DNA of 64,000 nucleotides, from positions 18,221,002 through 18,285,001 of the forward strand of contig NC_045148.1 of the NCBI RefSeq assembly GCF_008831285.2, read 5' to 3'. This document shows, one piece after another, positions 19,781-44,520 of the stretch (positions within the stretch are counted from its first letter, which is position 1; each line of letters opens with the position of its first letter). The notes under the pieces are model-generated. The model was not told where the DNA came from. It ran no database searches and was given only the letters and a program-made list of their open reading frames with translations. This DNA comes from Nymphaea colorata. Lineage: Eukaryota; Streptophyta; Magnoliopsida; Nymphaeales; Nymphaeaceae. The position numbers and the translations under genes are program-made.

Positions 19781-19840
19781 CCCTTACATGTAAATTTGTG
19801 AAATGTCTTTAAATAGCTAAAATAGAATAGTTGCTGGTCG

Positions 19841-22759: not shown

Positions 22760-23127
22760 GATCTCAACTCATCTTCAATTAGCACAAGATTGTAACTATT
22801 TACAGTGGGCTAGCACAGGCCAATACATGAACAATTTGTACTAATCTCAGATCAGAAAACACAGCAACCGGCCGGCTACTGGAGCATACTGTTCTTCTTC
22901 TTTCTTGTTGGTTCCAAAACGGGATGAAGTGATCAACTGCTTCTTAGACCCATCTTCACCATAGCCAAGGACTTAAAAAACCAGGCTCAAGGTCCCCAGA
23001 AGCAGCAAAAAGAGGCCAAAAAGTTCACCCCTTCAGGCAAAAAAAACTCTCCAAACCCATGCATCGGTTTCCAGGCCGGGGGTTCATCTACAAAATCCGC
23101 CGGACTCGGCCACTCGGCCGCCGGAAA

Positions 23128-23262
23128 CTAGTCATGCCAGCAGAGGAGCATGACGACGCATCGCCGGATGATATAGAGCCTGGCTCTCTGCTCCCTGATA
23201 GCTCCTCCTAGACCTCTGCTGGACAGCCTTCTCTTGGAAGAGCCAACCGCTCCCATCTTCAT
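23128..23262 (-). CDS. DVL/RTFL (DEVIL/ROTUNDIFOLIA FOUR-LIKE) small polypeptide, copy 1
   Basis: Forty-four-codon intron-less gene, stop TAG at 23128-23130. The protein starts [17 protein letters not shown] and ends [17 protein letters not shown], the hallmark C-terminal domain of the plant-specific DVL/RTFL peptides. In Arabidopsis, overexpressed members such as ROT4 shorten organs by limiting cell proliferation along the long axis and associate with the plasma membrane (family knowledge). A basic serine-rich N-terminus precedes the domain, matching the DVL18/19-like subtype. No ATG lies further upstream in frame before the stop. A TATA box lies 132 bp upstream. With Arg at the IIRRC position this copy keeps the family-typical residue that copies 3-5 changed to Gln. 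I judge it intact and functional. Confidence 0.93.
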
Positions 23263-23393
23263 GGCTGATGATATCTCTCTCGAAACTAAGGCACTGACTT
23301 GAATCAGAGAAGACCCACTTGGGTGTCTGTAAGATCTGCAGACAGAAACTGAGTGAAGTGCAGTGGTTGCAGAGGAGGAAGAAGAAGGTGTGT

Positions 23394-23440
23394 CTATATA
23401 TAGGAGTCAGGGCTAGGTGGGTGCAGTGGGGAGTGGACCA
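23394..23440 (-). promoter_or_regulatory. TATA box and conserved proximal block of DVL copy 1
   Basis: CTATATATAGG at 23394-23404 (CCTATATATAG on the gene strand), followed by CTAGGTGGGTGCAGTGGGGA and GTGGACC at 23413-23438. The same arrangement is found in all five copies. On the gene strand the block reads as CACCCACCTAG, similar to AC-rich MYB-type sites; factor identity is inference. A second conserved block, CCCATGTAAATGTC, lies at 23732-23745. Confidence 0.8.
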
Positions 23441-23782
23441 GAGCTAGGGCTTGGTTGCTTAAAGTGACAGCTGCAATGTACAACAAGCGTGTGTGTGTTG
23501 CCCCCTGCCCATTGAGACAAGACCCTCTATGTGGCTGCCAACTTGCACCATCCTGATTTAAAAAGTCCAGAAAACCAATCCAAAAATTTGTTTAGTTATT
23601 TACTTTTCTTTGTCTACATACTTGAATGCCAAGGTAAAACATATGGGTATGTTTAGTTTATTAAAATAAGTTTGTTGTTTCAGTTAATTAGTGCAAATGT
23701 CCTTCTTACGCTTCCACCAATGACTCTCATTCCCATGTAAATGTCGTTGGACCTGGAAAATAGAAAGGACCTGTTCTTATTG

Positions 23783-23783
<1 letters not shown>

Positions 23784-23860
<77 letters not shown>
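23784..23860. repeat. Compound (CT)n-(TA)n microsatellite
   Basis: About nineteen CT units run directly into about nineteen TA units, in the upstream region of DVL copy 1. It is likely to be length-polymorphic. Confidence 0.95.
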
Positions 23861-23863
<3 letters not shown>

Positions 23864-25221
23864 TTGACCGGATAGAGATCCAGATTTAGATCACAGATCC
23901 AACTAGGGAAATCAGTTGGATAAAGAGGTTATCTTCAATATTATTTGGTTTCTTCCTTTTCTAAATAAGGATCCTTCAGTCTTAGTCCTCCCTTCCTTGC
24001 AGAAGTTGGGTAGCCACAAATATTTTAAATGTTCAACAAATTGGAATGAAAAATCTTGTGGGAAATTAAATAGGTGTTTACCTTGGGAAAATACTTAGCA
24101 ATGTTAATTATAAATAATGAAAACAGTCTAGCATGTTCAGTTTTTTTGTTGTCTTTATTTTGTTTGAATTCAATGCCTCACACATCTATGTTTATCTGCA
24201 TTTTGTGGTGATTTTTAATAGTTTAACTTTTGTCACAATCTTACTGTTTAGTGACTAATCAATCTAACCAAAGCCTGGCTATTATCAAGCTTGGGTTTTT
24301 TTTCTTCACCAATTAACTTGAACTTTTAACACATTTGAAGATGGTTTGAGCATGTCAACTTATTCTTTTTACATATGTAGGTTTGAAATTGAATTTGAAG
24401 CTTAGAGCATTATTCAATGAAGTTGCTTATAAAATGTTCAGAAGCAACGCCCTCTTGCCCTCATGTGATGACCAAATAACTTAAACAAGTCTCATTTTTC
24501 CAAGAAGAAACTCATTCAAGTTCATGGTCGCCCACTATTATCCATGGTCCCTTGATGACAAAGCGGGAGAACTTAAACTATCATCTTAATCAAACCACCA
24601 ATCTCCTTGTTTTCCTAAGCAGGCGTGTAAAACTACACCCAGTTTATTGTATTACTACTGTCTCATGGCTGCTGGCCTCACATGCTATATACTAAAATTT
24701 CCTTGCTTTACATAATTTTTTATCATAAAAAGAAAGGAGGAAATTAGCAAATATATATCAAATTAATGCCTTCTTGCAAATAAAAATTACTTGGTTTTGG
24801 TTAATGTTTAATATCTCATGAGCGAAAATACTCTTAGAATAGTCCAAATCGAAATTAATAGAGAGAAATAAATGTGTGCCTAGCCTAACTATCTTGGTGT
24901 CCTCTTTCTTCATTTTGTCGAGCCAGAGCTTAATACGGGGTGAGTTGGGATAAGCTAAACCAAGCACTCGGGTCAATTTTTGGTTGAGTTGCATTTATAT
25001 GTACCTCTTTCTAAACTAGTTAAAAGCGTCACGAAACACAAAAAGAGTGGCCTGGTTCGTGAAGCTATGGCCCACATGTTCTGAATTTTACAAACTTGGT
25101 CAGGTTCTGAACAACTTAATTGTTCCATAAAAAGACTAGCAGGAACTTTCGGGTGAGCGGGATGAAATTTCACTGCTCGAGTGAAGGCTGAAGTCTCCCT
25201 CTTTCTCCATCCCCTTGCAAT

Positions 25222-25698
25222 TAGGGGTGAACAACGAGCTCGAGCTCGAGCTCGACTTGTTAAAACTCGGCTCGTGTACGAGTTCGAGCTGAGTCATTTG
25301 CTTAATGAGTCAAGCTCGAGTTCATGAGTTGACTCGTTCAAATAATCGTGTCGAGTTCAAGTTCATTGAACTCGAACTGTTAAAGCTCGACTTGACTCAA
25401 AAATGATGTGTAGCGAAATATTAGACTCATTTTTAAGTTTTTACAAAAACTCATTCAAGTTTGTTGAGCCTTAATCGAGTCGAGCTCGATTTATGGCAAA
25501 GTAATAGTCGATATATTCAAACAAGTTTTTCGATCCTTAATCGAGTCGAGCTCGATTTATGGCAAAGTAATAGTCGATATATTCAAACAAGTTTTTCGAT
25601 CCTTAATCGAGTCGAGCTCGAGCTCAACACGCAATTTCCGAGTTGGGCGATTCTCGAGCTCGAGCTGGCGGGCTCGACTCGGCTCGTGTTCACCCCTA
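25222..25698. mobile_element. Non-autonomous hAT-like element with GAGCTCGAG motifs and internal 66-bp repeats
   Basis: Left end TAGGGGTGAACAACGAGC and the reverse complement of the right end TAGGGGTGAACACGAGCC form an inverted terminal repeat. The interior is dense in GAGCTCGAGCTCG. Three copies of a 66-bp unit start at 25469, 25535 and 25601, the third partial, beginning CCTTAATCGAGTCGAGCTCG. The flanks, CTTGCAAT and CTTGACTA, are only partly alike, so a clean 8-bp target duplication is not seen. The apparent open frame across the repeats is a by-product of the unit length being a multiple of three. Confidence 0.75.
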
Positions 25699-26205: not shown

Positions 26206-26340
26206 TTAGTCGTGCCAACACAGGAGAATGATGATGCATCGCCGGATTATATAAAGCCTGGTTCTCCGCTCCCGGAGAGATAACCCTAATCCTCTGCCGG
26301 AAAACCTTCTCCTTGGCGAGCCAACCGCTCCCATCTTCAT
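26206..26340 (-). CDS. DVL/RTFL small polypeptide, copy 2 (divergent)
   Basis: Forty-four codons, stop TAA at 26206-26208. It begins [17 protein letters not shown] and ends [17 protein letters not shown]. The reading frame is intact, but relative to copy 1 it changes SSKRRLSSR to [18 protein letters not shown] to GLSLRERRT, and VVM to III inside the family domain. The invariant RLYIIRRC...LLCWHD core is kept, which argues for purifying selection and against decay. A TATA box lies only 71 bp upstream of the ATG, against 132-148 bp in the other copies, because the leader is shorter. It is probably the oldest duplicate of the set. Confidence 0.9.
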   Translation of the reverse strand: MKMGAVGSPRRRFSGRGLGLSLRERRTRLYIIRRCIIILLCWHD

Positions 26341-26410
26341 GCCTGATCCCTCCATTGTTCAGACCTTGACTTCAATCAAAAGAAACCAACAAAAAGCAAG
26401 AAGGTGTTCC

Positions 26411-26456
26411 CTATATATAGGAGGGGGGCTAGGTGGGTGCGGTGGGGAGTGGACCA
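26411..26456 (-). promoter_or_regulatory. TATA box and conserved proximal block of DVL copy 2
   Basis: CTATATATAGG at 26411-26421, then CTAGGTGGGTGCGGTGGGGA and GTGGACC at 26429-26455. This block is preserved although the leader and coding sequence of this copy have drifted, which suggests functional constraint. The distal conserved block is at 26725-26752. Confidence 0.78.
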
Positions 26457-27098
26457 GGACTAGGGCTTAGTCGCCTAAAGTGCCAGCTGCAAGGTATGAA
26501 CATGCTGGTCTTTGTTGCCCCTCCACTAATTGAGACACGACCCACTTATATGATAGTCAACTCTCATACGTCCCGATGAACAAACATCTATTTTGTTAAA
26601 AAAACTTTGTTCTCCCTAGAATGTCAAGAGAAGCAAATGATGTATATGTTAATGTAATATATTAGTGGGTGGGTTATTGATTTAGTGTAAATGATGTTCT
26701 TACGCTTCCACCATAGGTTCTCAGTCCCAATGTGAATGTCACCGGGTTGGATTTACGAAGGACTTTGCTGTCGTGGACATGGCTTGGAAGTTGTAGCTAT
26801 CTCAACACACACAAATATATACGTTTATTTAGTTAAGGCTTTCTAGCTTTTGTCCTACTCTCAATCACCAGATGCAATACATATGGATACATAATATGAT
26901 GTGAGAGGTCGGAGGATTTCTCCATTCAAACTGGAAGGACAGATATATATATAGGAGCTGAAATCCGTTGCCCAGTTCACCCTCTGCCCAATCTTGCATT
27001 GAGTGGGTGTGATTAAATACGTTGTTCGATACAATATATTTGACAGTATGTTGAGAGAGGATGGAAGATTTTTCCGTTCAAACTTGAAGGAAAAATCC

Positions 27099-27138
<40 letters not shown>

Positions 27139-28974
27139 TTTATGGATCTGATTTTAAGAGTGATTTGTTAAGAAACATACATTAAACTAATAATGTTTTA
27201 TAAATAGCAACTCTTATTACATCAAAATTTGATAGTAGAAAAATCAATTTTTTATTTTACAAAAATAACTTGAATTTTAAAACATGATTTACACTAAATT
27301 ATTGTTTATAAATGTATTAGAAGGTTCACAGTTTGTTTAAAATACCTTTTAGTATAGATTTAAGAGGTATAGTTTTCGTCCCCTACTAAAACAGTACTCT
27401 CTCTCTCTCGAATATATATATATATATATATATATGGGTCTGAAGAGGCTCTCCTCAAAAGAATTGCTTGTTGAGCCCCATGCTTCAGGCTGTATGTGAA
27501 CGCTACCATGCTTTATTTTTCCCGAGAAGAAATGGGGCGGAAGCTCATCGAACTCCACGCCTGTAAGACGAGAAGTTAGAACTGCTCAACCTCTTCTTTT
27601 TTATGCAAGCGAGGAAAACAACTCCACAATTTATTCTTTTAATGTCTCACGGCCATTGACCTCACAACTTCATTAAATATTGCTTAGCACACACTTCCTT
27701 TTTTTTTTTTTTCATCGTTGTTTTTGTTTTTTAAAAAGAAGATGTCTGCCAAATTCATATCCAAATACAGGTCCAAGTTCAAACTAAAAATATGGTTCTC
27801 CTTTTTTTGTTTAAAAATTTGATGAAAGTACTGTTGGTGTGAAAACCATACATGTCCATATCCATGTTGAAAAAAATTCTGAAAATAGTGCATTTTAAAG
27901 AAATTATACGAAAAAAGATCCAGATCAGAATCTGAAAATTCGGATTTGTGAGGGGGTTGGATCTAGAACATGTAATACATTTGGGGCCGGGTCTACTCAC
28001 AATCAGATCCGAAACAGCCAAAGAAATGACAAATTAACCCCATTTTCTAGATCCAACCCATTTCCAACCCTAGTCGTAATCCGGACTCGAGTGATATATG
28101 TATCCGATCCGTTCTCGATTGCGCAAAAATCATGTGACTATGTTCCCAAGCCCTAATTGCATGGGCCTACAGTTGGTCAAGTGCCAACCTGCCCAATTGC
28201 TTAAACCCGTGGCTCATTTTTGTCTATCTCTAGACAGACCAGCACCACCCAAGAACAAATTTAGGGTTTCACTACTGCTTTCTCTCCCTAAAACAATTGA
28301 GGCAAGAAACAACAGTCATTTTTGCACTGTCCTTTGGTGTTATATTAGAGGACTGTCTCTTTGAGCTCCCCAATGAGGAGACAGGCCAATGCCTCAACTC
28401 AATTTCCCATGCCTGCTCCTCATGGCTCTGTTGATGATGAATGACATTGTTGAAGAAGAAGATGATGATGATTAGGGTGGTGGTGGTGACATATGACCTG
28501 TTTATAATTGTGGGGGGCTCACTTTACATAGGCGCTAGAGTGGGAGACATGGTCCTGTCCTACAAATTAAGGACACCCTTGTCAGGATGTGCCCTAGGAT
28601 GCAATCTATGGGCATCTACTCATATAATTCAATTCACTAAGTGTTACGGACTAGACCCAAACCCTATTGTGAGATATCAATCGCTGACATAAATAGTATA
28701 TATGCAACACCCCAGCCCACTCCCATGCCGGGCTCGGGCTCTTGGTTTGACTGATTCTAACCTGACTCCAAACAGTTTCTGTTCAAACCCTAAAAATGGT
28801 AGGTTTGGACTTATAAGTGAGAATAGAAAAACATTGCAAGTCGTATATTATTATTTTTTGTTCTTTGGTAAGTTTCAGAAAACTGTATGAAAGCTTATGA
28901 CCTGATAGAAACTGAAGATAGTTTCCTTTTTTTTTTTTGGTTAATGTAAACCTTTTGTGTTCCTAATGTTTCCA
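26457..28974. other. Upstream region of DVL copy 2 and intergenic DNA
   Basis: Up to about 27680 this is the DVL unit 2 upstream region. Two similar tracts, ATTTCTCCATTCAAACTGGA near 26916 and a relative near 27068, each stand next to TA repeats. From 27680 to 28974 I see no gene, only AT-rich sequence with short frames. Confidence 0.5.
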
Positions 28975-29735
28975 ATAAAATTATGGAGCACATTCTTGGA
29001 ACTTATGGTAATTAGGGTGCACCCACTTGGATAAATGTGGTTGAATATGAATTATTGCCAACTTAATAAACTTGGGAGTCCTTTTCATACACAGAAGAAA
29101 GCTTGAAGTATGATCACTAATTGCCAGCTACCATTGATTAAATAAAGATGTGTGAGAATGATAAGACTTGAAATAAGCCAAAACTAGAAATGAAAGCCTC
29201 TCTGCAGATTTCATGTCATGCTCCAATTTCTTTTGTCTCCAAAATCATTCATTTCACGTGTTTGGATCTGTAGGCTTATCGAGCCATCATAGCCATGAAG
29301 CTTTAGAGTAGGACAACCAAGTCTACGGCTAGATTTGCCACTTATGCTTGTCTAGGCGAAAGGTTGTTTTATATTTTTTTGATATATATTGACATTGGTT
29401 TGTGAACCGAATCACAAGGCTGGTGATTTGGTGAATCGGCCGATTCACCGATTTAGTGAATTGGTTGTGAACCAGTCAAAAGTATTAAAAGAATCATTTC
29501 TAAAAAATAAAGAAAAAACGTATAGAAAATGCCTAAGTATTTTCTCCGTTTTCTAGAAAAGCATGCTTTGCTTTGTCTTAAATGCTAAGTAAGCACTCTC
29601 CCAAGTCTCAAAGCCTGTACTACCTCATCAAAATAAGGGAAAACTTTGACATATAGAAACAATCCGGTCGAAAAGAAAGCATCTCGAACACGTTCACAGG
29701 ACGCTGCATGGACACGTTTGTGGAACATTATATTC

Positions 29736-29900
29736 CAGTAGCGGAGTCAGAAAAATTCGTTGGAGAAGCATTTGTTTAAAAAATACTTAAATCTAATGGG
29801 GCTCTTATATACATAATGATAAATATTTAAGATTCTCATTTAAAAATAAAGAACTTTTAAGAGACTGGTGTGAGCAAGTGACAATGTGGCTATGCCACTG
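29736..29900. mobile_element. Small non-autonomous hAT-like insertion in segment A
   Basis: Present in segment A but absent from B and C at the same place. Its ends are CAGTAGCGGAGTC and, in reverse complement, CAGTGGCATAGCC, resembling the CAGTGGCG...-type ends of plant hAT relatives. Flanking octamers TTATATTC and CTACATTC match at six of eight positions, consistent with an aged 8-bp target duplication. Confidence 0.5.
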
Positions 29901-30830
29901 CTACATTCTAAAGAACACATCGTTCCTATTACCCAACCGCCCTTTTGGTGTTGCATTGAATATTTTTTTTAGAAGAAATCAGAAAGTGAATAAATGACAA
30001 AAGAATCTAGCAAGTCTAAAATTGAAATTGTCAGATCTCAACATGAATGTTAATGGTGAGGATTTGAATCTGAATCGCATTAGTCAGATTGCATTGTATC
30101 CAGTTTGTGATCGAATTCATTTTTTGTGCCGAATTTTCTTACTGGATCTAATGGGCATCAAGATTCTATTACTTGTAACAATTCAAACACAGTTTCGTAC
30201 ATTCACTTCTGGATTTGATTCTGAGTTGCATTAGTTTGGAAATTTAGATCCACTCGTAGATCCACAAATATCTCTGATCTCCGACCAACCGTGGTAATAA
30301 GGGCGTGTTTGAGATGCTTAGATAAGGAGTCTGGGACACCTTGTTTAAGATGCTTTTCTCAACAACTGCTGGAGAAGAAGTGTCTCAATTGTAGGTTTGC
30401 GAGACTGTCCATTAAAAAGCAAATTTTTGAAGAAACATGTAAAACATCTCATCAACACCATGGATCTCAACTCATCTTCCATTAGAATTAGAACAAAAAC
30501 ACAACTATTTACACTCAAGAAATAAGTCAGTAGCCTAGAACAGGCTAATACAAAAAGGATCAGTCATCTCATCAGGATTTTCCGACAACCGGAAACTACA
30601 AAGAGTAGTATGTACACCTTTGGTTGCAAAAAAATCAACCACTTTCCGATCTAATTCTTCTACTCCATAGCTCATTCAGCAAAGGCCAGACTCAAGAAGC
30701 ATTGAAAGCAGCCCAAAAAGAGTCAATACTCAATCTTTCTAACAAAACTCTCAAAGGCTGGCCCATGGCACGGCTCCCTGGCTAGAGAGCTTGCCTTTAC
30801 AAAAATCGTTTCGGGTTGGTTCGGCTCGAA

Positions 30831-30965
30831 TTAGTCATGCCAGCAAAGGAGCATGACGACGCATTGCCGGATAATGTAGAGTCGGGCTCTCTGTTCCCTG
30901 AGAGCTCCTCCAAGTCCTCTGCTGGACAACCTTCTCTTTGATGAGCCAACTGCTCCCATCTTCAT
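30831..30965 (-). CDS. DVL/RTFL small polypeptide, copy 3
   Basis: Forty-four codons, stop TAA at 30831-30833, ATG at 30965. N-terminus [18 protein letters not shown]-terminus [17 protein letters not shown]. The protein differs from copy 1 by I to L in GGALREQ and by R to Q in IIRQC. It is identical to the protein of copy 4 apart from two extra N-terminal residues. The TATA box lies 147 bp upstream and the 3' flank is shared with copy 4 over hundreds of bases. Intact small-peptide gene; expected role in restraining directional cell proliferation (family knowledge). Confidence 0.93.
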
Positions 30966-31111
30966 GGCTGATCTTTCTCTTGGTGAACCTTAACTTGAAC
31001 CAAATAAGACCAAGTTGGTTCTGTGTAAGATCTATCAGAGTGCCTGTGATTCAGATGATGACACAAACTGATTGGGGTGGAGTACTGCTTGAGAAGAGGA
31101 AGAAGGTACCT

Positions 31112-31158
31112 CTATATATAGGAAACAGGACTAGGTGGGTGCAGTGGGGAGTGGACCA
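31112..31158 (-). promoter_or_regulatory. TATA box and conserved proximal block of DVL copy 3
   Basis: CTATATATAGG at 31112-31122 and CTAGGTGGGTGCAGTGGGGA plus GTGGACC at 31131-31157. A further conserved stretch, GAGACAAAACCCTATATATG, follows at 31204-31223, and the distal block CCCCATGTAAATGTCACTAG is at 31377-31396. Confidence 0.8.
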
Positions 31159-32340
31159 AGGCTGACTACGGCAAGCAAGAGTGCCTATCGCCATCCACTA
31201 CTTGAGACAAAACCCTATATATGGCTGCCAACTTGCTTAATTAAGAAAAAAAAGTACTGCAATTCAGCTTCTTTAATTCATTTCAATCTACTTGAATGCC
31301 AAGTGGTGCTCTTAGATTTATATATACTTTGGGTGTGAAAAGCAATGTTTTGAAACATCCATCCCTTATTTCTATTCCCCATGTAAATGTCACTAGGTTG
31401 AACCTAAGGCACGGAACAGAACTAGAGAATCGAGTTTAGTTTTTATTTCTCCTCAAGGGAAGTTCGACTGCTGGGTGTGGTTTCCTTGTGTTGAAGCCCA
31501 TGTCCTATGGTAACAATATAACTTGATTAAACACTAGGGTTTTGCTTTCAATATTGTCCCAAGAGGGGATGGGACCAAACCTCGTTAAAGCTGGTGCTGG
31601 TTCGCATGCATGGTCCCTTGAATGACAAGTGAATTGAACTAAAACTTCATCTTTCCAACTATCTTTTTGTTTTTCTGCAGCAAGCATGGAAAACTGTTGC
31701 TGGTTTTATTCTCTGGTTGTCTCATGGTTGTTGGCCTCGTCGTTTCTCCTCCCATATATTCCTTTGTACCTTTCTGTTAGAATTAAAACTAAGCCTGGGC
31801 ACCGGGCCGGGCCGCCGCTAGGTACCCGGTACCCAGCCCGCCATGGGCCCGGGCCTTGACAAAATAGTTTTCGGGCTTAATTTATCGGGCTCGGCCCGGC
31901 CCGGTAATTAACGGGTCGGGCGGACATGGTTTGTTTGTTTTTTTTTCAATAAAATGAACTTAGAGATTTAAGAACTTAGGTTTTTTTTTCCTCTTTTTGT
32001 TTCATTACGAAATTTAAGAGCATATATCACACCCTCTTTTTCTTTCTTGTGCGACGGGTGTTTGTTTGCTTGCGTGGACTTATGCTTATGCAGAAACAAC
32101 ATGCTTGGTCATGGATTGATGGAGGGTTAGGTTTGCTGCTGCATTTGCAAGCCAATGCACAAACATAAATGTAGATTTGGTAAATAGACAAGGAAACATT
32201 TAAATACAAAAACATGTATTCATTGGCCAAATGTTGGTAATTTGTTGACATTGTATCAGTCAAGAAAACAGGTATGGCTGGGCCTTGGTTTTTTTTACTA
32301 GTATAATTTCTTGCTTTTGTTATTCTCTTAAGTGCACATG

Positions 32341-32445
32341 CTTCACATGTTACAAGGACATTAAATATCTTAACACATTCTACAAGAATGTGGAATCCTA
32401 AGAGACTCCTCTTCAAGGTGCTGGTGAAGGGTTTATATTTTAACA
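32341..32445 (-). repeat. Truncated 3' LTR of the copia element
   Basis: Corresponds to 37321-37424 of the 5' LTR. On the minus strand it starts TGTTAAAATATAAA right after the purine-rich GAAGGAGGG tract. The remaining ~355 bp are missing and replaced by unrelated DNA. Confidence 0.85.
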
Positions 32446-32505
32446 CCCTCCTTCAAGTTGTGCATGGTTTTGCACCATGTACAACTTGCTTTTTAGAAAC
32501 CAGAA

Positions 32506-35500
32506 TCATTCATTTGTTAATCCTTTTGTATATAAGTCTTCAACTTGTTCATTTGTACGAACATAAATAGGTTGAATCTCCTTGTCTTCCACCTTTTGTC
32601 TAACAAAGTGTTGATCAATCTCAATGTGCTTTGTTCGACCATGTTGTATGGGATTAAAGACAATGTTAATAGCGCTTTGATTATCGCACATTAACATTGA
32701 CTTTTAATCTTTTCTCCAATGTTTTCTAGCAAATGTCTAACCCATGTAACTTCAATAGTACCTGCAGCCATGCATCTGTATTCAGCTTCAGTGCTGAATC
32801 TTGCTACTGCCTTTTGCTTTCGACAACTCCAAGACACAAGGTTACGTCTAATGAAAATACGAAAACCAGAAATGGACTTTCTTTGATCGGGATCTCCAGC
32901 CCAATCTGCATCTGTGAATGTCATAAGTTGATGTCCAGTAGTTATATTTTTACTAAGCCATCTCCTGCTATCCCTTTAAGATATCTTAATATTCTTTTGA
33001 CAACATCCATGTGAGTATCTCTAGGTGCATGCATAAATTGAGATACTTGATTCACAGCATAACTAGTCTAGTAAATGTAAAATATTGAAGTGCCCCAACA
33101 ATACTTCGATATTGCATAGGATCTTCATATAACTCCCCATCCTGAGCACTTAGTCTTTGATTTAGAACACTAGGAGTTCCAACAGGCTTACAATAATACA
33201 TACCTGACTTTTTCAGCAGATCCAACGTGTATTTCTGTTGTGTCAATGTGAGACAATTATTGTGCCTATCAATCTCCACTCCAAGAAAGAATCGTAAATC
33301 ACCAAGCTCTTTCATTTGAAGTTTTGCATCATCAAAACTTTAGCTTCTTCTATGTGTTTTTCTGAATTGCCTGTGATAACAATATCATCAACATATATAA
33401 GAAGTAAAGTAAATATGTTTTTCTTTCGATAAATGAAAAGAGAGTGATCTAAAGGACATCTCCGAAAACCACATTCTTGAATCTTGTAGGAGAAACTGTC
33501 AAACCACGAACGTGAGGCCTATTTAAGTCCATAAATGGATTTTCTTAGTTTGCAAACCCATGCATGAGAGTCTCCTTTCGTGTATCCTAGAGGTTGTTCC
33601 ATATACACTTCCTTCATTAAATCACCATGAAGAAAAGCATTCTTTACGTCCATTTGATGTAGTTTCCATCCATATTCAACTGCCAATGATATAACACGCG
33701 AATTGTTTCCATTTTGATTACAGGGCTGAATGTCTCATCATAATCTTCTCCATATTGTTGTGTAAACCCTTTTGCTACTAACCTTGTTTTGTGTCTTTTT
33801 ATGTTGCCGTCAGGTTTATATTTAATTTTGTATGCCCATTTGGAGCACACTACATTCTTTTCGTGTGGCCTCGAAACGATCTCCCATGTTCCACATTCAT
33901 GCAAGGCTTCCATTTCTTCTTTCATAGCTTTTCTCCAATGATGTCATTTTGATGCTTGATCAAATGAAGTAGGTTCTTCCTCCTTGCCAACTTTTGCTAT
34001 GAATAACTGAAAATCAAGTGATAAAGAATCATAGCTAACCCACCTGTGAATGGAATGACGAATGCGTTGGGATCTTCTAAGGTGAAGCATGTTGTCTTCT
34101 TCACTGTGAGCATCTCTGTCCCTTAGTCATTGACTGTAGATAAGACCCGAATTCCGATGTGCATCGTTGCTCTGTTCTTCATTATTGTTTTCGTGATGAC
34201 TTGATGACTGTGTTGGATCTTCTTGATTTTCACTTTGAGCCATATCCGACGGTTGTATTGCTCTCTCTGGATGTTCATTTTGAGGCACATCATTTTCTAT
34301 AACAGGATCTGCATTGAATAACTGTGTACTGGTCCAAGGATCATAAGATTGAATGGTCATAGGCATTTCATTTGTATTATCAAAACTATGTTCATCAAAA
34401 ATGACATTTCTTGAAGTTTTAATACGTTTAGTTGTTGGATCATAACATCGAAAACCTTTATATTCATCAGCATATTCAACGAATCTACATTGAATAGCTT
34501 TGTCTTGAAACTTGTTCTTCAAGGCAGCATCAACGTGAACATAGCATACACAACAAAAAACCTTCAAGTTCTTGTAATCAGGTTGTTTGCCTAAGAGTGT
34601 AAAATATGGCGATTTAGACATCAAGAGTGTCATAGGCAAACAATTTATTATGTATACAGTAGTATGGAAGGCTTCAGTCCACAAGAAAATGGGCACATTA
34701 GTATCATGCATCATGCTCATGGCGCTTTCAACTATATGTCGATGTTTCCGCTCAACTACACCATTTTGTTGTGGTGTGTAAGGGCAGGAAATTTGTCTAG
34801 TTATCCCTTTTTCACGTAGAAATTCAATAAAATCAAGCGAAGAATATTCTCCCCCTCCATCACATTGAAAATGCACTACATTGGATGAAAATTTGGTTTG
34901 AATCATGACATAGAAGTTTCGAAATATGTGGGGTACTTCTGATTTGTGTTTCATGAAGTAAATTCAGGTGAAACGTGAGTAAGAGTCAATGAATAAGACA
35001 TAATATCTTGACCCAGACATGAAATCAATAGGGACTGACCCCCATACATCAGAAAAAATAGTTTCAAAAGGTTTGGAAGCCCTTTGATTTATATTATGGA
35101 AAGGTAAAACATGACTCTTACAAAGTCCACAACTTGAACATTTTTTGACACTTAAAGTAAGATGTAAGCTTGATCTTGGAATGAGACTATCTGTGACAAG
35201 TTTTTCAATGAAATGTCGACCACAGTGTCTTAGCCTACTATGCTACAGATCAGACTCCAAAAATTGGTTATGGCCCCTTACTTTTGATTGAAAATGGCAA
35301 GAACTTGGCACTGATGACGTATTATGAGAAAGAGAAAATGTCTTCAATCCTATATCAAAATATCAAAAGTGGATGAATCCTTGGGTAGACATTCCTTGAG
35401 GACCTACATATTCCCTTGGCGCTCCCCTCTAGTGAACATTTTCTTCGTTTGGAGGTCCTTGACATAGACAGAAGAAGGTGTGAATTCAACAGAAGAACTT

Positions 35501-36744
35501 GTATCATCAATGAGTTTAGAAATGGATATGATGTTCTTTTTTATATTGGGAGCAAGAACAACATTAGACAGTGATAGAGACGAAGATGACAATGGAATAT
35601 GTGCATTTCCAATATGTGTAATGGGATGAGATTTTTTATCACCTGTTATAATGCAATTTCTACCGTAATGAGGGGATAAGTTAGTCAATTTACCTGCACT
35701 TCCTGTCACATGAGTAGCTGCACCTGAATCCAAGAACCATTCTACCTGCTCATTTTGCTTTATAGTCATCTTTAATAATACAGTCATCAATAATTGTTGC
35801 ATATCTTCAGCAATGGATTTAGAACTTTGTCCTCCTTGTTTATAATCATGTCTTACCCCTTTGTTTTTATTTTGAGGATTAAACCAACACTGTGCCTTCA
35901 TGTGCCCTTTCTTGTTGCACTGAAAACAAATTGGTATTTTTCTTGAAGTATCCAAAGGAGACATACCTTGTTTATGTGGTGTTGGTAGAATGCCACGACC
36001 ACCATGGTTGGAGTTCCCATGGCTCTTACCAAACTTTACATTCATAGCCAACACATTTTGGGAATTCCCTTGATCAGTCCTTTTAATGACTCTTTTCATA
36101 TTCATTTCGTGTTGGATAAGTTTACCTTGTAGTTCGTTGAAGGAAGGCAGGACAGAAAAGACCTCAAGAGCTGTAATAAAAGCATGATAATCATGCCCAA
36201 GTCCATTCAAGGTTTGCTGCACCTTTTCCTTATCAGAAATGTTATTCTATGATGCAGCAAATTGGTCTGCGACGGCCTTAATACGCCCCAAATAATTCAT
36301 GATAGATGTTGAACCTTTGCTCAAATTCTGAAATTCTTTCTTTAAGTACATAATTCGAGCTTCTGATATTTGGGAAAATGTATCAGAAAGGGTTTTCCAT
36401 AATTCTTCTGCAGTACAATCATCAAAAACTGAAAGTAACACTTGTTGAGATAAAGTGGACAAAATATACGCAACCAGACTTTGGTCACGTCTCATCCACA
36501 TAGCATGTTCAGGATTGCTGCCTTCATGAACAACAATAACTTCTCCTACCTCATTTTTTATTTCCTGCAAAACAGATATTGGTGGAGTCTTTGTTGAACC
36601 ATCGAGATGTCCAAAGAGGCCTTGACTTTTTATGAAAGGCATGATTTGCCTTTTCCAGATTAGATAATTCTCATGGTTGAGTTTTTCTTTAATAAGGTGA
36701 GGAAGAAAACTTGAGGACATGCCAGAATGCAAAAGGTTTTCCAT
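32506..36744 (-). pseudogene. Broken copia gag-pol
   Basis: Gag begins with MENLLHSGMSSSF at 36744 and is interrupted near 36247. A following stretch (36222-35404) carries a CCHC zinc knuckle CFQCNKKGHMKAQC and the protease site WFLDSGAATH. An integrase core (34954-34127) shows DGGGEYSS and the PQQNGVVERKH motif. Reverse transcriptase is split between about 33925-33644 and 33315-33052. RNase H (32924-32506) shows TDADWAGD and ADLYTKGL-like ends. Frames change between these pieces, so several stops and frameshifts are fixed. It encodes no complete polyprotein. Confidence 0.92.
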
Positions 36745-36950
36745 AACAACAGAAAGGAATGGTATATAAGTAGAAGATGAGAGGGAAAGAAGACACGATA
36801 TAACAAGATGTGTCCTTAGGTAAGCAAGAAGAAAAAGGAACAAGAATTGCGCAAGAGAAAAGTAAATTCAGGATAGAGACAAGATGAGAAAAAAGTTTTA
36901 AACAGATCAGACCTGTTTGAGCATTTCGTTTGGTAGAGATAACGTAACCT

Positions 36951-36963
36951 GGCTCTGATACCA
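36951..36963 (-). other. Copia primer-binding site
   Basis: TGGTATCAGAGCC on the minus strand, directly after the LTR terminus ...ATCA, complementary to the 3' end of initiator tRNA-Met as in most plant copia elements. Confidence 0.9.
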
Positions 36964-37013
36964 TGATAAAAATCTAGCACCAATATCTATAACCAGAAAA
37001 CAGTACTTACGCA

Positions 37014-37069
<56 letters not shown>

Positions 37070-37424
37070 ACAAGAAACTGAGGAGAAGAAGCCGTTGCCA
37101 AAATGGTTTGCACGGCCTCTATTTATAATCCAATTTCTAGAATTCTAAGAGTCTCTAATCCTATAATCTTAGGAGATTTCACAAGCTCCAAGGACATTAA
37201 TTACATCATAGAAACCTAAGAGACTTAACATATTACAAGGATATTAACTACAACATAGAATCTTAGGAGACTTCACATATAACAAGGATATTAACTACAA
37301 CATAGAATCATAGGAGACTCTTCACATGTTACAAGGACATTAAATATCTAAACACATTCTACATGGAGGTGGAATCCTAAGAGACTCCTCTTTAACGTGC
37401 TGGTGAATGATTTATATTTTAACA
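36964..37424 (-). repeat. 5' LTR of the copia element (461 bp)
   Basis: Begins TGTTAAAATATAAA and ends ATCA on the minus strand (TG...CA termini). It contains repeated GATATTAACTACAACATAGA stretches and a GA microsatellite at 37017-37064. Confidence 0.88.
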
Positions 37425-37705
37425 GTTTACGTTCGTACTCATTTTTTGAGTGAGCTAGAGGCTAGCAACCCGCCTCAAAGCCCGACCCAGCCCACCTCAA
37501 AGCCCGGCCCAAAGCCTGGCCCAGCCCGCCCGACCCATTAATAATTGGGCCGGGCCTCGGGCATAAACCGAAGCCCGATATTACATGGGCCCGGCCTGTT
37601 TAGAAACGGGCCGGGCTTCGGGCCGGCCTGTTTCGAATGTCGGGCTTTGATTTTTTCATTTTTAACGGGTCGGGCCAGCCCGACCCGGCCCGATGCCCAG
37701 CCTTA

Positions 37706-38084
37706 ATTAAAACCATCCTGTAAGCAGGGCAGAGCTAGAGTTTTGTAGCTAAGGGGCACTGGTAATAAATTTTAAAATTTTAAAAGGTCGTAAACATGTA
37801 AATAAGAAAAATTGACATAAAGTGTCAACATAAAAATAAGTATTTTTCATGGCTCTGTGTGGGCATTTGTCCACACGTTGCCTCGCTCCTGCCTGCAAGT
37901 ATGAGGGCATTGTGTTAAACGTCATGCATCGGGTACATGAAAGAATTTGAAAGCCATATATGATTTTTCTCTCTTGGGGTAAGCTTCCAAATCTTTATGA
38001 AAATTTAATCCTGAAAACAGATGTTTGGTTCCCCTTTTTGTTGTTTTGTTGATACCAACCTTTTATTTTTCTGTTATTTCCACA
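37706..38084. repeat. Continuation of segment A after the hAT insertion
   Basis: Resumes at the second ATTAAAAC and aligns with 41450-41880 (GAGCTAG...GGTAATAAATTTTAAA, GACATAAAGTGTCAACATAA, CTCTGTGTGGGCA). It lacks the 174-bp insertion present at 41539-41712, so it holds the empty site TCGTAAAC at 37788-37795. Confidence 0.8.
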
Positions 38085-39426
38085 AGATTATGGAGCAAAT
38101 TCCAGGAATAAATGAGGTTAAATATGATTTCTTGCGAACTTGGCCACTTGAATAAATGAGGTTGAATACGATTTCTTGCGAACTTGGCGACTTTTGGAGA
38201 CCTTTGTTCATGCATGCAAGAAAGCTTGGTGTATGATTATTAATTGCCATCTATCATTGATTAAATGATGCGTCATGTGTGTGATAATGATAAGACTTGA
38301 AATAAACCAAAAGAAGAAATCAAAGCCTTCCTGCAGATTCGATGACATGCTTCAATTTCTTTTGTCTCCAAATCATTTATTTCATGCATTTAGATCTATA
38401 TAGGCTTATGAAGCCATCAACGCATAAAGGTGCACAGTAAAACAACCAAGTCTACAGCTAGATTTGCAAGGGCTAGGAGGTTGGACTTAAGTTGAAGAAG
38501 ATCAAGAGTTTAACATCTGAACCGGCTCAACTGTATTAAGTAGGAACAGGTAAGTGATCTACTTAACTCTGAATCTTATCTATCAAAGAGGAAAAAGAAG
38601 AAGATTGATGGTCTTGTATCGAACCGAGGTTGAAGGTCAAGTGTTCCAACTCCAATATTGGGGCTTCTTTTTAAGTAAAATTCAGTTATGTTTGTCTATT
38701 CTAAAGGGTTATTTTATGTAAATATTCTCCCAATTTTTTTATTAATAAATTCCGGGGCAAACCCCCAGCATCAGTAGTTCTCTGGAAAGGGTTGTTTTAG
38801 AGTTCTATAATTTGGTAAAGGGTCTTTAGGTGCAACCATTTCTACTGAAATTGGATTGAGTGAAGCGGCTGATTTACTGATTTATAGGTGCATTGGTTAT
38901 GAATAAACAAAAAAAAATATTTTTTTAAAGGGAAAAGAGTATAAATTCCTTTTAAATAAAAAATTACATTCAAAGTCTCCACCCAAAATTTCAATTTTCA
39001 AAATCTTAGGGAAACAATGGCCCTTGCCACTTGCCAGCCCCTAATGGGAGACACTGACCACAGTAAATGAAAAAACCTATAAGAATTTGCTCAAAAGTAA
39101 AAGAAATAAAAATATATTAAAAGTTAGTTAATACTTGACATATGGCACTCTTGAATCGGACTTTAGGTACAGCAGGTTAAAACTAAGTACGATTTGTTCA
39201 CTCATCTAGAGAGTCGTTTCTCCATTTTCTTGAAAAGCATTCTTTATATATATGCTTTGTCTCAAACGCTAAGTGAGAACTCTCTTTATATGTATGTTTT
39301 GTCTTAAACGCTAAGTGAGCACTCTCCCAAGTCTCAAAGTCTGTGCTTCCTTATCAAAATAAGAGAAAATGTTGACAAATAAAACGAACTTGTGGAATAA
39401 AAAGCATCCATTTGCGGGTGTTCTCA

Positions 39427-39595
39427 CACATTCATGGTCTAATGCATGGGTACATAAATGAAACACTTTGTTCTCAAGAACTCAGTTTGGGTTCCTGTTG
39501 CCAAACACCTGGACACATTCATGGTCTATTGCATGGGTACATTCATGAAACACTCTATTCCGAAGAACCTAGTTTGGGTTCCTGTTACCGAACAC
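39427..39595. repeat. Two-copy tandem repeat of about 85 bp within segment B
   Basis: Both units run CACATTCATGGTCTA...GCATGGGTACAT...GAAACACT...GTTTGGGTTCCTGTT. Segment C has the partial motif duplicated differently (GGTGTTCGGACACATCC, GGTGTTCAGACACATTC near 42783-42825), so this spot has expanded independently. Confidence 0.8.
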
Positions 39596-40501
39596 CTCCA
39601 TTTGGTGTCGCGATGGTTTATTTATTTATTTTTTTTTTAAGGGAACAAATTAGAAAGGAATCTGACAAGTCTAAAATTGAAATTTTCAGCAGTCATGAGA
39701 TCTCACCGGGAATGTTAATGGTGAGGATTTGAATCTTAATCCCCTTAGTCATATTGCATGCAATCCAGTTTGCAATTGAGTTCAATATTTGCGCCGATTT
39801 TTCTTACTGGATTCAATGGGTATCAAGATCCTATTGCATGTAGAAATTCCAACACAGTTTCGTACACTCACTTCTGGATTTGGTTCTGAGTTCCATTAGT
39901 TTGGAAGTTGTAAAAGTTATATCCAACCCAATTAGATCCACTTACAACTTAGCTTAGATAAGGTGTCAGGGACACCTTGTTTAAGATGCTTTGCTCAAAA
40001 AATGCTGGAGCCCAAGTGTATCAATTGTACGTTTGCGAGACTCTGTCCAGCCGAAACAATAGATCGTAAACTAAAGTGCATATTTTGGAAGAAACGTATA
40101 AAACAAAATCTCAACGCCATGGATGTCAAACTCATCTACCATTAGAATTAGAACAAAAACACAACTATTTACACTCAAGAAATAAGTCAGTAGCCTAGAA
40201 CAGGCTAATACAAAAAGGATCAGTCATCTCATCAGGATTTTCCGACGACCGGAAACTACAAAGAGTAGTATGTACACCTTTGGCTGCAAAAAATTCAACC
40301 ACTTTCCGATCTAATTCTTCTACTCCATAGCTCATTCAGCAAAGGCCAGACTCAAAGAACCATTGAAAGCAGCCCCAAAAGAATCAAAACCCAATCTTTC
40401 TAACAAAACTCTCAAAGGCTGGCCCATGGCATGGCTTCCTGGGCTTCCTGGCTAGAGAGCTTGCCTTTACAAAAATCGCTTCAGGTTCGATTCGGCCCGA
40501 A

Positions 40502-40630
40502 TTAGTCGTGCCAGCAAAGGAGCATGACGACGCATTGCCGGATAATGTAGAGCCTGGCTCTCTGTTCCCTGAGAGCTCCTCCAAGTCCTCTGCTGGACAA
40601 CCTTCTCTTTGATGAGCCAACTGCTCCCAT
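40502..40630 (-). CDS. DVL/RTFL small polypeptide, copy 4 (start shifted by two codons)
   Basis: Forty-two codons before the stop TAA at 40502-40504; ATG at 40630. The protein starts [15 protein letters not shown] and ends [17 protein letters not shown]. Compared with the other copies it has lost six bases (the first ATG AAG pair, CTTCAT on the plus strand), so translation must begin at what is Met3 elsewhere. The open frame continues upstream to about 40732, but no ATG occurs there. Apart from the start it is identical to copy 3. The TATA box lies 148 bp upstream. Intact. Confidence 0.92.
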
Positions 40631-40777
40631 TGGCTGATCACTCCCTTGTTGAACCTTAACTTGAACCAAACAAGACCAAGTTGGTCCTGTGTAAGATCTA
40701 TCAGAGTGCCTGTGATTCAGATGATGACACAAACTGATTGGGGTGGAGTACTGCTTGAGAAGAGGAAGAAGGTACCT

Positions 40778-40823
40778 CTATATATAGGAAACAGGGCTAG
40801 GTGGGTGCAGTGGGGAGTGGACC
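40778..40823 (-). promoter_or_regulatory. TATA box and conserved proximal block of DVL copy 4
   Basis: CTATATATAGG at 40778-40788, CTAGGTGGGTGCAGTGGGGA and GTGGACC at 40797-40823. GAGACAAAACCCTATATATG follows at about 40870-40889, and the distal block CCCCATGCAAATGTCACTAG is at 41045-41064. Confidence 0.8.
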
Positions 40824-41538
40824 AAGACTGACTACGGCAAGCAAGAGTGCCTATCGCCACCCACTAATTGAGACAAAACCCTATATATGGCTGCCAACTT
40901 GCTTAATTAAGAAAAAAAAAAGTACTGCAATTCAACTTCTTTAATTCATTTCCATCTACTTGAATGCCAAGTGGTGCTCTTAGATTTATATATAATTTGG
41001 GTGTGAAAAGCAATGCTTTGAAACATCCATCCCTTATTTCTATTCCCCATGCAAATGTCACTAGGTTGGACCTAACGCACGGAACAGAACTTAGAATCGA
41101 GTTAGTTTTTATTTCTCCTCAAGAGAAGTTCGACTGGTGGGAGTGTGCTTTCCTTGTGTAGAAGCCCATGTCCTATGGTAACAATATAACTTGATTAAAC
41201 AGTAGGGTTTTGCTTTCAATATTGTCCCAAGAGGGGATGGGACCAAACCTCGTTAAAGCTCGTGCTGGTTCGTATGCATGGTCCCCTGAATGACAAGTGA
41301 ATTGAAATAAAACTTCATCTTTTCAACTATCTTTTTGTTTTTCTGCAGCAAGCATGGAAAACTGTTGCCGGTTTTATTCTCCGGTTGTCTCATGGTTGTT
41401 GGCCTCATCATTTCTCTTCCGATATATTCCTTCGAACCTTACCGCTAGAATTAAAACCATCCCACAAGCAAGGCGGAGCTAGAAATTTTTAGCTAAAGGA
41501 TACTAGTAATAAATTTTAAATTTTGAAGGATCATAAAC

Positions 41539-41712
41539 AGTGGCGTAGCCATATGGTGGCTGGAGTGGGCAGTTGCCCTGCCTCACAAAATTAATTTAAT
41601 ATATATATTAATGTTTTGATATATTTGATTATTACACATGTAAGTGCCTCAAAACAATTAAAAGTACTGAATGAATGTCTCCGCCAAAAAAAATTTCTAG
41701 CTCCGCTAGTGG
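41539..41712. mobile_element. Small non-autonomous hAT-like insertion with 8-bp target duplication
   Basis: A 174-bp block starting AGTGGCGTAGCCA and ending AGCTCCGCTAGTGG, flanked on both sides by TCATAAAC (41531-41538 and 41713-41720). The paralogous site at 37788-37795 has one TCGTAAAC and no insertion. Ends and target size fit a hAT derivative. It is non-coding. Confidence 0.78.
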
Positions 41713-42521
41713 TCATAAACATGTAAATGAGAAAAATTGACATAAAGTATCAACATAAACATAAGTATTTTTTGTAGCTCTGTGTGGGCAATTGCCCACA
41801 GGTTGACTGACAAAAACAGATGTTTTGTTTTGTTTTCCCTGTTTGTTGTTTTGTTAATACGATCATTTTATTTTCCTGTTATTTCCATAAGATTATTGAG
41901 CAAATTCAGGAACTTTTGGTAATCAGGGCACACCCACTTGAATAAATGAGGTTGAATATGATTTCCTGCGAAGTTGGCGACTTTTGGAGACTTTTTTTCA
42001 TGCATGCAAGAAAGCTTGATGTATGATCATCAATTGCCATCTATCATTGATTAAATGATGTGTCATGTGTGTGATAATGATAAGACTTGAAATAAACCAA
42101 AAGAAGAAATCCAAGCCTTCCCGCAGATTCCATGATATGCTTTAATTTCTTTTGTCTCCAAATCATTCATTTCATGTTTTTGGATCTATATAGGCTTATG
42201 AAGCCATCAACCCATAAAGCTCAGTAGAACAACCAAGTCTGCAGCTAGATTTGCCAGGCTTGGAGGTTGAACTTAAGTTGAAGAAGGTCAAGAGTTTAAT
42301 ATCTGAACCGGCTCAACTGTATAAAGTATAAACTGGTAAGTGATCTACTTAACTCTGAATCTTATCTATCAAAAGGAAAAGAAAGAAGATTGATGGTTTT
42401 ATTTCGAACCGAGGTTGCAGGTCAAGTGTTCCAACTCCAATATTAGGTATTGGGTCTTTAGGTACAACCATGAATACTAGTACCCATCAGTTCACTCATC
42501 TAGAGAGTCGTTATATATATA

Positions 42522-42559
42522 TATATAAAGAGAGAGTACTCACGTAGTGTTTAAGACAA

Positions 42560-42611
<52 letters not shown>

Positions 42612-42649
42612 TTGTCTTAAACGCTACGTGAGTACTCTCTCTTTATATA
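42522..42649. repeat. 128-bp near-perfect palindrome
   Basis: Arms of 53 bp (42522-42574 and 42597-42649) are reverse complements with one mismatch, around a 22-bp TA core that is itself palindromic. The left arm reads TATAAAGAGAGAGTACTCAC then GTAGTGTTTAAGACAAAG and (GT)7. Segment B has only a single, non-inverted version of the CTTAAACGCTA motif (about 39303), so the inverted copy arose in segment C. Confidence 0.92.
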
Positions 42650-43642
42650 CTTCATATATATGTTTTGTCTTAAACGCTAAGTGAGCACTCTCCCAAGTCT
42701 CAAAGGCTGTGCTTCCTCATCAAAATAAGGGAAAACGTTGACATATAAAACGAACTTGTGGAATAAAAAGCATCCATTTGAGGGTGTTCGGACACATCCA
42801 TTTGCTGGTGTTCAGACACATTCATGGTCTACTGCGTGGGTACATTCATGAAACACTCTGCAGTTTTGGGTTCCTGTTGCCGAACACCTCCTTTGGTGTC
42901 GCATTGATGGTTTATTTCTTTCTTTTTTAAGGGAACAAATTAGTAAGGAATCTGACAAGTCTAAAATTGAAATCTTCAGCAGTCATGAGACCTCACCGGG
43001 AATGTTAATGGTGAGGATTTGAATCTTAATCCCATTAGTAAGATTGCACGCAATCAGTTTGCAATTGAATTCAATTTTTGTGTCGACTTTCCTTACTGGA
43101 TTCGATGGGTATCAAGATCCTATTACATCTAGAAATTCCAACACAGTTTCGTGCACTCACTTCTGGATTTGATTTTGAGTTTCGTTAGTTCGGAAGTTGT
43201 AAGATAAGGTGTCAGGGACACCTTGTTTAAGATGCTTTGCTCAAAAAATACTGGAGACCAAGTGTCAGTGACACTCTGCCCAGCCGAAACAAGTAGACCT
43301 TAAATTAAAGTGCATATTTTGGAAGAAACGTATAAAACAAAATCTCAAAGCCATGGATGACAAACTCATCTACCATTAGAATTAGAACAAAAGCATAACT
43401 ATTTACAGTCAAGAAATAAGTCAGTAGCCTACAACAGGCTAATACAAAAATTAATCTCATCAGGATTTTGTGACGGGAACACGGCAACCGGCAACTACAA
43501 ACGGTAGCAATTGCTCCTTTGATTGAGAAAAATCAACCACTTGCTGAATTCTTCTTCACCGGAGCTCATTCAGCAAAGGCCAAGCTCAAGAACCTCCAAA
43601 AAGGTCAATACTCAAATCATTTTGGGTTCTGTTCGACTCGAA

Positions 43643-43777
43643 TCAGTCATGCCAGCAAAGAAGCATGACGACACATTGCCGGAAAATGTAGAGCCTGGCT
43701 TTCTGTTCCCTCAGAGCTCCGCCAAGCCCTCTGCTTGACAACCTTCTCTTTGATGAGCCAGCTGCTCCCATCTTCAT
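43643..43777 (-). CDS. DVL/RTFL small polypeptide, copy 5
   Basis: Forty-four codons; the stop is TGA at 43643-43645, unlike TAG/TAA in the others. N-terminus [18 protein letters not shown]-terminus [17 protein letters not shown]. Differences from copy 3 are V5 to A, R to K in EQKARLY, and I to F in YIFRQ; the last lies inside the family core and is unusual. The frame is intact and the TATA box lies 143 bp upstream. It is the nearest cluster member to the TMEM214-like gene. Confidence 0.92.
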
Positions 43778-43919
43778 GGCTTATGACTCCCTTGTAGAGC
43801 CTTGACTTGAACCAAAGATGACCAACTTGGTCTTGAAGATCTATGAAAGTTCCTGTGATTCAGATGATGACACAAACGATTGGGGTTGAGTACTGCTTGA
43901 GAAGATGAAGAAGGTACCT

Positions 43920-43965
43920 CTATATATAGGGAGGGGGCAAGGGGCGTGCAGTGGGGAGGGGACCA
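43920..43965 (-). promoter_or_regulatory. TATA box and conserved proximal block of DVL copy 5
   Basis: CTATATATAGG at 43920-43930. The proximal block is weakened to GGGGCGTGCAGTGGGGA and GGGGACC, having lost CTAGGTGGGTGC. GAGACAGGACTCTATATATG lies at about 43994-44013 and the distal block CCCCATGCAAATGTCAC at 44163-44179. Confidence 0.72.
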
Positions 43966-44520
43966 AGGGTAAGGCTATTAACCCCAACTTGTTGAGACAG
44001 GACTCTATATATGGCTGCCATCTTGCTTAATTAAGAAAAAACGTATTATAATTCACATTTTTAAATTCATTTCTATCTACTTGAATGCTAAGTTTTCTTA
44101 GATTAATATATACTTTGGGGGTTGAAAACAATGTTTTGAAACATTCATCCCTTATTTCTCTTCCCCATGCAAATGTCACGAGGTTGGACCTAAGGCACTG
44201 AACAGGATTAGGGAATATAGTTCAGTTTTTGTTTCTCCTCAAGAGAAGTTCGACTGTGGGGAGTGTTACTTGAAAGAATTTCTTTGCTTGTGTTGAAACC
44301 CATGCCCTATAGTAAGAAAATGACTTGATTAAACACTAGGGTTTTGCTTTCAATATTGTCCCAGGAGGGGAAGGGACCAAAACTCGTGGAAGTTCGTGCT
44401 AGTTCATAAGCATGGTCCCAAGTTCAACCATCTTTTTGTTTTGCTGCAACAAGCGTGGAAAACGGCTGCCCGTTTTATTCTCCGGTTGTCTCACGGTGCC
44501 GGCCTCGTTGTTTTTTTTGA

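Follow-up and report, generated by a model that had tools for sequence, protein, structure and literature searches.

We analyzed a 64,000-nucleotide stretch of the Nymphaea colorata genome (contig NC_045148.1, positions 18,221,002 to 18,285,001 of the forward strand; hereafter the window), in which an initial annotation had proposed a tandem cluster of five DVL/RTFL small-peptide genes. All five frames, termed here W1 to W5 (Table 1), matched the Pfam DVL profile PF08137 at 32.8-47 bits (E 6.1e-8 to 2.2e-12), against a curated cut-off of 19.6 bits. They had been described as intact minus-strand frames of 42-44 codons, which is what we found when counting from the aligned start methionine (44 codons in W1, W2, W3, and W5, and 42 in W4; W2 encodes 49 residues from its first ATG). 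The domain is C-terminal in each of these peptides of 42-49 residues, with the profile match stopping three residues short of the C-terminus. The proposed family hallmark, an ending of the form RLYII(F)RRC/QC...LLCWHD, was likewise recovered in every copy: W1 and W2 carry LYIIRRC, W3 and W4 carry LYIIRQC, and W5 carries LYIFRQC, while LLCWHD forms the C-terminal end of all five. The peptide alignment contains 26 invariant columns. In W4, a 5-nt deletion removed the first ATG, leaving the peptide without its first two residues and with the second in-frame ATG; its 42-residue core is identical to that of W3, with 3 of 126 nucleotides differing. Pfam, a tree of the 23 family matches in the genome, and purifying selection at the codon level all bear out the family assignment and the tandem arrangement. 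The frames indeed remain intact amid rearranged DNA: the flanks contain repeat units, a chimeric unit, and a 5.9-kb insertion. Judged from sequence, the five window frames are genuine protein-coding DVL/RTFL genes in tandem, kept coding by purifying selection.

Table 1. Features of the DVL/RTFL array and its surroundings. Positions are those of the window unless a C2 locus is named.
Feature	Position	Strand	Basis and remarks
W1, DVL/RTFL gene	23128..23262	-	44 amino acids; PF08137 E 2.2e-12
W2, DVL/RTFL gene	26206..26355	-	49 amino acids from first ATG, 44 from aligned Met; PF08137 E 6.1e-8
W3, DVL/RTFL gene	30831..30965	-	44 amino acids; PF08137 E 4.9e-11
W4, DVL/RTFL gene	40502..40630	-	42 amino acids; PF08137 E 4.4e-11
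W5, DVL/RTFL gene	43643..43777	-	44 amino acids; PF08137 E 1.2e-9
TATA box of W1	23392..23405	-	alignment, pattern scan
TATA box of W2	26409-26422	-	alignment, pattern scan
TATA box of W3	31110-31123	-	alignment, pattern scan
TATA box of W4	40776-40789	-	alignment, pattern scan
TATA box of W5	43918-43931	-	alignment, pattern scan; 1 mismatch
Upstream block 1 (AAGTTGGCRRCCATATRTAG), W3	31215..31234	-	alignment-drawn pattern
Upstream block 1, W1	23525-23544		2 mismatches
Upstream block 1, W4	40881-40900
Upstream block 1, W5	44005-44024		1 mismatch
Upstream block 1, C2 gene	4974 (locus L021)
Upstream block 2 (TTGCAGYTGKCRCTTTARG), W1	23458..23476	-	alignment-drawn pattern
Upstream block 2, W2	26474-26492	-	alignment-drawn pattern
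Upstream block 2, C2 gene	4909 (locus L021)		alignment-drawn pattern
Repeat unit around W3	28830..31790		repeat comparison
Repeat unit around W4, chimeric	37940..41460		left part W5-like, right part W3-like, breakpoint 40138-40159
Repeat unit around W5	41810..44556		repeat comparison
Insertion between W3 and W4, 5,916 bp	31790..37705		terminal inverted repeats, 8-bp direct repeat
Right-hand flanking gene, tested exon	49691-49981	-	genome search
Right-hand flanking gene, tested exon	51761-52486	-	genome search

To place these genes within their family, the genome (407.8 Mb, 783 contigs) was searched in six frames with PF08137, the resulting counts being lower bounds. At least 23 matches were found, all above the cut-off and none with an internal stop. 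Thirteen of the 23 fall in two tandem arrays, namely the five window genes and eight genes on C2 at 34.2 Mb. The nearest single-copy relative of W1-W5 is a DVL gene on the minus strand at C2:5.64 Mb (hereafter the C2 gene), the one copy found on the C2 side; it forms a single clade with the five window genes (support 96/98, in a tree of 23 matches built from few columns).

Selection was assessed with a codon model written for this analysis and applied to the 42 comparable codons of W1-W5 and the C2 gene. The ratio of nonsynonymous to synonymous substitution rates (omega) was 0.171 for the six genes (likelihood ratio test (LRT) 38.1 against 1, p 7e-10), and alternative tree shapes and codon-frequency settings left it at 0.17-0.18. 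Restricted to the five window copies, the comparison proposed with the initial annotation, omega was 0.192 (p 5e-7) and not near 1, and for W3-W5 alone it was 0.111 (p 4e-4). All omega values given here are biased downwards, since every gene entered the comparison by virtue of its match to the family. The coding sequence also changed less than the adjoining DNA in both the W3-W5 and the W3-W4 comparisons; W3 and W5, for example, differ at 12 of 135 sites in the frame versus 29 of 195 in the 200 bp just upstream. In neutral simulations, which used assumed branch lengths and indel rates, all five frames stayed intact with a probability of 0.022 (no indels) or 0.0035 (indels), and stayed intact with the LLCWHD end preserved with a probability of about 1e-5 (no indels) or 1e-7 (indels).

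Conservation extends upstream of the frames. All five genes have a TATA box (CCTATATATAG), positioned 79 to 156 bp ahead of the aligned start, and two further blocks divide the copies. Block 1 is found with up to 2 mismatches in four window genes and the C2 gene, and was not detected in W2 at up to 4 mismatches; its one other match, with 4 mismatches, is near the second array, at a distance of about 16 kb from the closest DVL gene there. Block 2 is absent from W3-W5: beyond W1, W2, and the C2 gene, no further match at up to 3 mismatches was obtained in the window, a 120-kb C2 stretch, or eight other 10-kb loci. Its 2 matches in the window compare with 0.24 expected, and 1 of 100 shuffles reached 2. 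Both patterns were drawn from the alignment, and finding them in the genes aligned is therefore not independent evidence; the absence from W3-W5 is the informative result. Because W3-W5 are without the block common to W1, W2, and the C2 gene, promoters of putatively ancestral and derived type coexist in the array. The earlier suggestion that five adjacent copies reflect dosage or expression-domain diversification is supported in part by the sequence: the different blocks of W1/W2 and W3-W5 fit expression divergence, and the identical core of W3 and W4 fits dosage.

The repeat structure of the array suggests how it grew. The units around W3, W4, and W5 align over about 3 kb, and the W4 unit is a chimera with a single sharp breakpoint, about 340 bp downstream of the stop codon. 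Left of the breakpoint, W4 agrees with W5 at 239 sites versus 70 at which it agrees with W3; right of it, 139 sites join W3 and W4 versus 26 that join W4 and W5; and 103 further informative sites join W3 and W5. The maximum chi2 for the breakpoint was 165.5, as opposed to a largest value of 16.6 in 1000 shuffles. Since the middle unit joins its right neighbor's left part to its left neighbor's right part, W4 bears the mark of one unequal crossing-over between a W3-like and a W5-like unit. Raw divergence in the two halves of W4 is 13.2% and 5.8%, and that between W3 and W5 in the same halves is 25.6% and 15.4%; the resulting ratios, 0.52 and 0.38, are compatible with one event plus some later homogenization. 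Synonymous divergence (dS) among the window copies, rough because it was obtained from 42 codons, is 0.11 for W3-W4, 0.29-0.33 for W5 against W4 and W3, and 0.48-0.99 for pairs that include W1 or W2, and ranges from 0.71 to 1.36 between window copies and the C2 gene. In upstream DNA, W1 and W2 are the best-matching pair among the older copies (score 155, 127/147), with scores against the C2 gene of 80 (137/165, W1) and 59 (134/168).

A later step in the history of the locus is recorded by the insertion between W3 and W4. It is flanked by copies of the 8-bp direct repeat ATTAAAAC (31782-31789 and 37706-37713), a length from which we presume a hAT-type element. Inside it are copia-type remnants, comprising two gag profiles and an integrase-side SH3 profile above the cut-offs, an integrase core match below the cut-off, and one further frame without a match. 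The corresponding place beside W4 (41450-41457) is an empty site. Most simply, W3 and W4 had already been duplicated when the element inserted.

The relationship between the window and the C2 gene was examined through the right-hand flanking gene, a putative TMEM214-type gene whose second tested exon gave no Pfam match. Each of its two tested exons matches a single further site in the genome (C2:5668460 and C2:5670386); both sites lie about 25 kb rightward of the C2 gene and, like it, on the minus strand. The window and C2 versions differ by a dS of 1.03 and a nonsynonymous divergence (dN) of 0.27 over 242 aligned codons, in frames that were taken from stop to stop and may include some non-coding edges. 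Paralogues of N. colorata are reported to show a peak of synonymous divergence (Ks) at about 0.9 (PMC7015852). Given the shared flanking gene and its dS near the reported peak, the window and C2:5.64 Mb are most likely partners from the N. colorata whole-genome duplication.

What the peptides might do can be approached through their Arabidopsis relatives. ROT4 is reported to be S-acylated mainly at C42, which is required for its membrane location, and to bind BSK5, thereby freeing BSK5 from PEPR1; the S-acylated Cys is found in most Arabidopsis members, and RTFL13, with Arg at that position, spread through the cell (PMC10897394). RTFL18, one long helix in an AlphaFold model, binds BSK3/6, in a model via C-terminal residues, and lowers brassinosteroid signaling and PIF4 (PMC10613268). 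Short, rounded organs upon DVL/RTFL overexpression, and binding to BSK kinases, are described in Arabidopsis papers (PMC10897394, PMC10613268, PMC4408365). The Cys equivalent to ROT4 C42, located through the two domain Cys (C36 and C42), which are six residues apart, is kept in all five window peptides. Positions taken to match the modeled BSK3 contacts of RTFL18, mapped from the C-terminus, are identical or conservatively changed: L29, I32 (F in W5), V36 (I in W2), L39, L40, H43, and D44. The N-termini contain Arg/Lys, have no hydrophobic stretch, and, judged by eye only, show no evident signal peptide. Each gene most likely makes a short cytosolic peptide without a signal sequence. By analogy with ROT4 and RTFL18, S-acylation at the LLCWHD Cys would tether this peptide to the plasma membrane, where it would bind BSK-type receptor-like cytoplasmic kinases. 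Such binding may dampen brassinosteroid-dependent elongation, free immune signaling, or both. We infer that BSK kinases are the targets of the window peptides and that peptide dose follows the number of copies; extra copies would raise the amount of peptide, and their differing promoters would allow W1/W2 and W3-W5 to be expressed differently.

Taken together, we consider it probable that one DVL gene was duplicated with its segment, that the window side then multiplied stepwise, that selection kept the copies, and that these encode BSK-binding membrane peptides. The segment was most likely duplicated in the ancient whole-genome duplication; its C2 partner would have stayed single, and at least one of the tandem steps in the window probably proceeded by unequal crossing-over. 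Several observations weigh against this history. Only one flanking gene, represented by two exons, shows collinearity; a further right-hand exon matches nowhere else in the genome; and an exon of the left-hand flanking gene, presumably a helicase (a second exon of which had no Pfam match), has its best other match on C2, but in the opposite orientation and some 1.17 Mb distant. Further points concern whether the first tandem step preceded or followed the whole-genome duplication, and favor an earlier start, with the C2 side later shrinking to one gene. The upstream DNA of W1 scores 80 with the C2 gene versus 68 with W5; the coding sequence of W1 differs equally from that of the C2 gene and that of W5 (at 20 of 126 nucleotides in each case); and the W2-W5 dS of 0.99 is as large as values to the C2 gene. 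Moreover, the trees neither order W1, W2, and the C2 gene nor place the C2 gene relative to W1, W2, and W3-W5 (in one tree it was the only outsider included), so that the first tandem duplication may have preceded the whole-genome duplication. We nevertheless regard this earlier start as unlikely, though deserving of some weight, as the TATA region of W1-W5 aligns poorly with the C2 gene, W1 and W2 match each other upstream better than either matches the C2 gene, and most dS values among window copies fall below those to the C2 gene. Growth of the array after the whole-genome duplication, on the window side only, is the likelier course.

The case for selection has its own counterpoints. Just 42 codons were compared, omega averages over branches of which some perhaps predate the duplication, and W2 is the fastest-evolving copy (branch omega 0.51 versus 0.096 elsewhere; LRT 6.77, p 0.009, uncorrected for six branch tests), so that it may be relaxed or diverging. 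The faster evolution of W2 would suit copies that are mostly redundant and kept by chance and homogenization, with only one or two expressed, as would the near-identity of W3 and W4 and the presence of a frameshifted copy in the second array, which indicates that such arrays decay. Redundancy of this kind seems improbable to us: W1, W2, and W5 remain intact despite considerable divergence from the other copies in the window (dS 0.29-0.99), omega is as low as 0.11 in W3-W5, and the neutral survival of all five frames with their motif is improbable under the assumed branch lengths. The frames could even be thought chance or pseudogene relics within repetitive DNA, given that they sit amid repeats and adjoin a transposon; with the Pfam cut-off passed by all five, omega well below 1, and a conserved core promoter, we give this hardly any credence.

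The second array lies outside the window. It comprises eight intact copies on one strand (C2:34198212-34275228, L009-L017) and a ninth, frameshifted copy near C2:34.2339 Mb, between the fifth and sixth intact ones; omega for the eight intact copies, with the frameshifted one left out, was 0.229 (p 8e-6). Its peptides end in WYIHGDD or WYIHGED and by eye resemble a single gene on C13 most closely among single genes, and by these sequences the two arrays represent different DVL subfamilies. This difference in subfamily also ruled out the second array as the duplication partner of the window cluster. Collinearity between the second array and C13 was sought with two flanking exons, neither of which has any other genome match. 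In the fifth copy (C2:34228662, L012), Arg replaces the S-acylation Cys, as reported for Arabidopsis RTFL13. The change from RRC to RQC is found in both arrays, in W3, W4, and W5 and in C2_2, C2_5, C2_7, and C2_8 of the second array; the codon is CGA in W1 and CAA in W3, and a CpG transition may explain the change. It is conceivable, if rather doubtful, that selection for a higher dose of DVL peptide favored the separate amplification of the two subfamilies (to five and eight intact copies, together 13 of the 23 matches), probably in an early-diverging angiosperm, and that the arrays, given the shared RRC to RQC change and a Cys-to-Arg copy that should not be membrane-anchored, may yield a tunable mix of membrane-bound and soluble peptides. 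Two close DVL pairs were also seen elsewhere, on C6 (2879220 and 2884390, opposite strands) and on C9 (14090137 and 14096591, same strand, with very different peptides).

W1-W5 are ordinary family members, in an arrangement that is unusual in light of the small body of literature consulted. They share with Arabidopsis ROT4 and RTFL18 (DVL1), as with PF08137, the short C-terminal domain, the S-acylation Cys, and conserved positions at the modeled BSK contacts. Unlike these Arabidopsis genes, they form a five-copy tandem array, present on only one of the two probable partner segments; DVL1 has 51 residues versus 44 in a typical window copy (PMC11756074). The 23 matches are close to the 24 members given for rice and 21 for Arabidopsis (PMC11756074), and to the 20 and 19 per diploid genome in cotton, where most Ka/Ks values are below 0.5 (PMC10816595). 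In the cotton study, however, nearly all members are described as whole-genome or segmental duplicates, with 1 of 39 tandem in G. hirsutum (PMC10816595), in contrast to the 13 of 23 in two arrays here. A comparison of 188 RTFL members from 22 species found a conserved C-terminal RTF domain and a poorly conserved N-terminal part, as here; its main text does not contain the words tandem, duplicat-, or Amborella, array arrangement being outside its subject (PMC4408365). The literature searched yielded no description of tandemly arrayed DVL genes or of Nymphaea DVL genes, which is weak evidence since subscription journals were thinly covered. The gene family is known, and so many copies side by side seem unusual for DVL. 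Genes this short can be missed by annotation, and an array whose probable partner locus is single in the same genome offers a natural test of whether DVL dose matters. The ordered steps of whole-genome duplication, tandem duplication, and transposon insertion can be tested in relatives.

Other features of the window lie outside these genes. Downstream of W3 and W4 are 46-codon open frames (30535-30675 and 40195-40335) that are 93% identical; they have no other genome match at E up to 0.01, and the one that was scanned matched no Pfam family. We took them as repeat sequence rather than genes. Further to the left, an open frame of 787 codons that carries PPR repeats (17423-19783, minus strand) is located between the copies of a 1.2-kb direct repeat (12987-14165 and 19841-21015) that are 74% identical.

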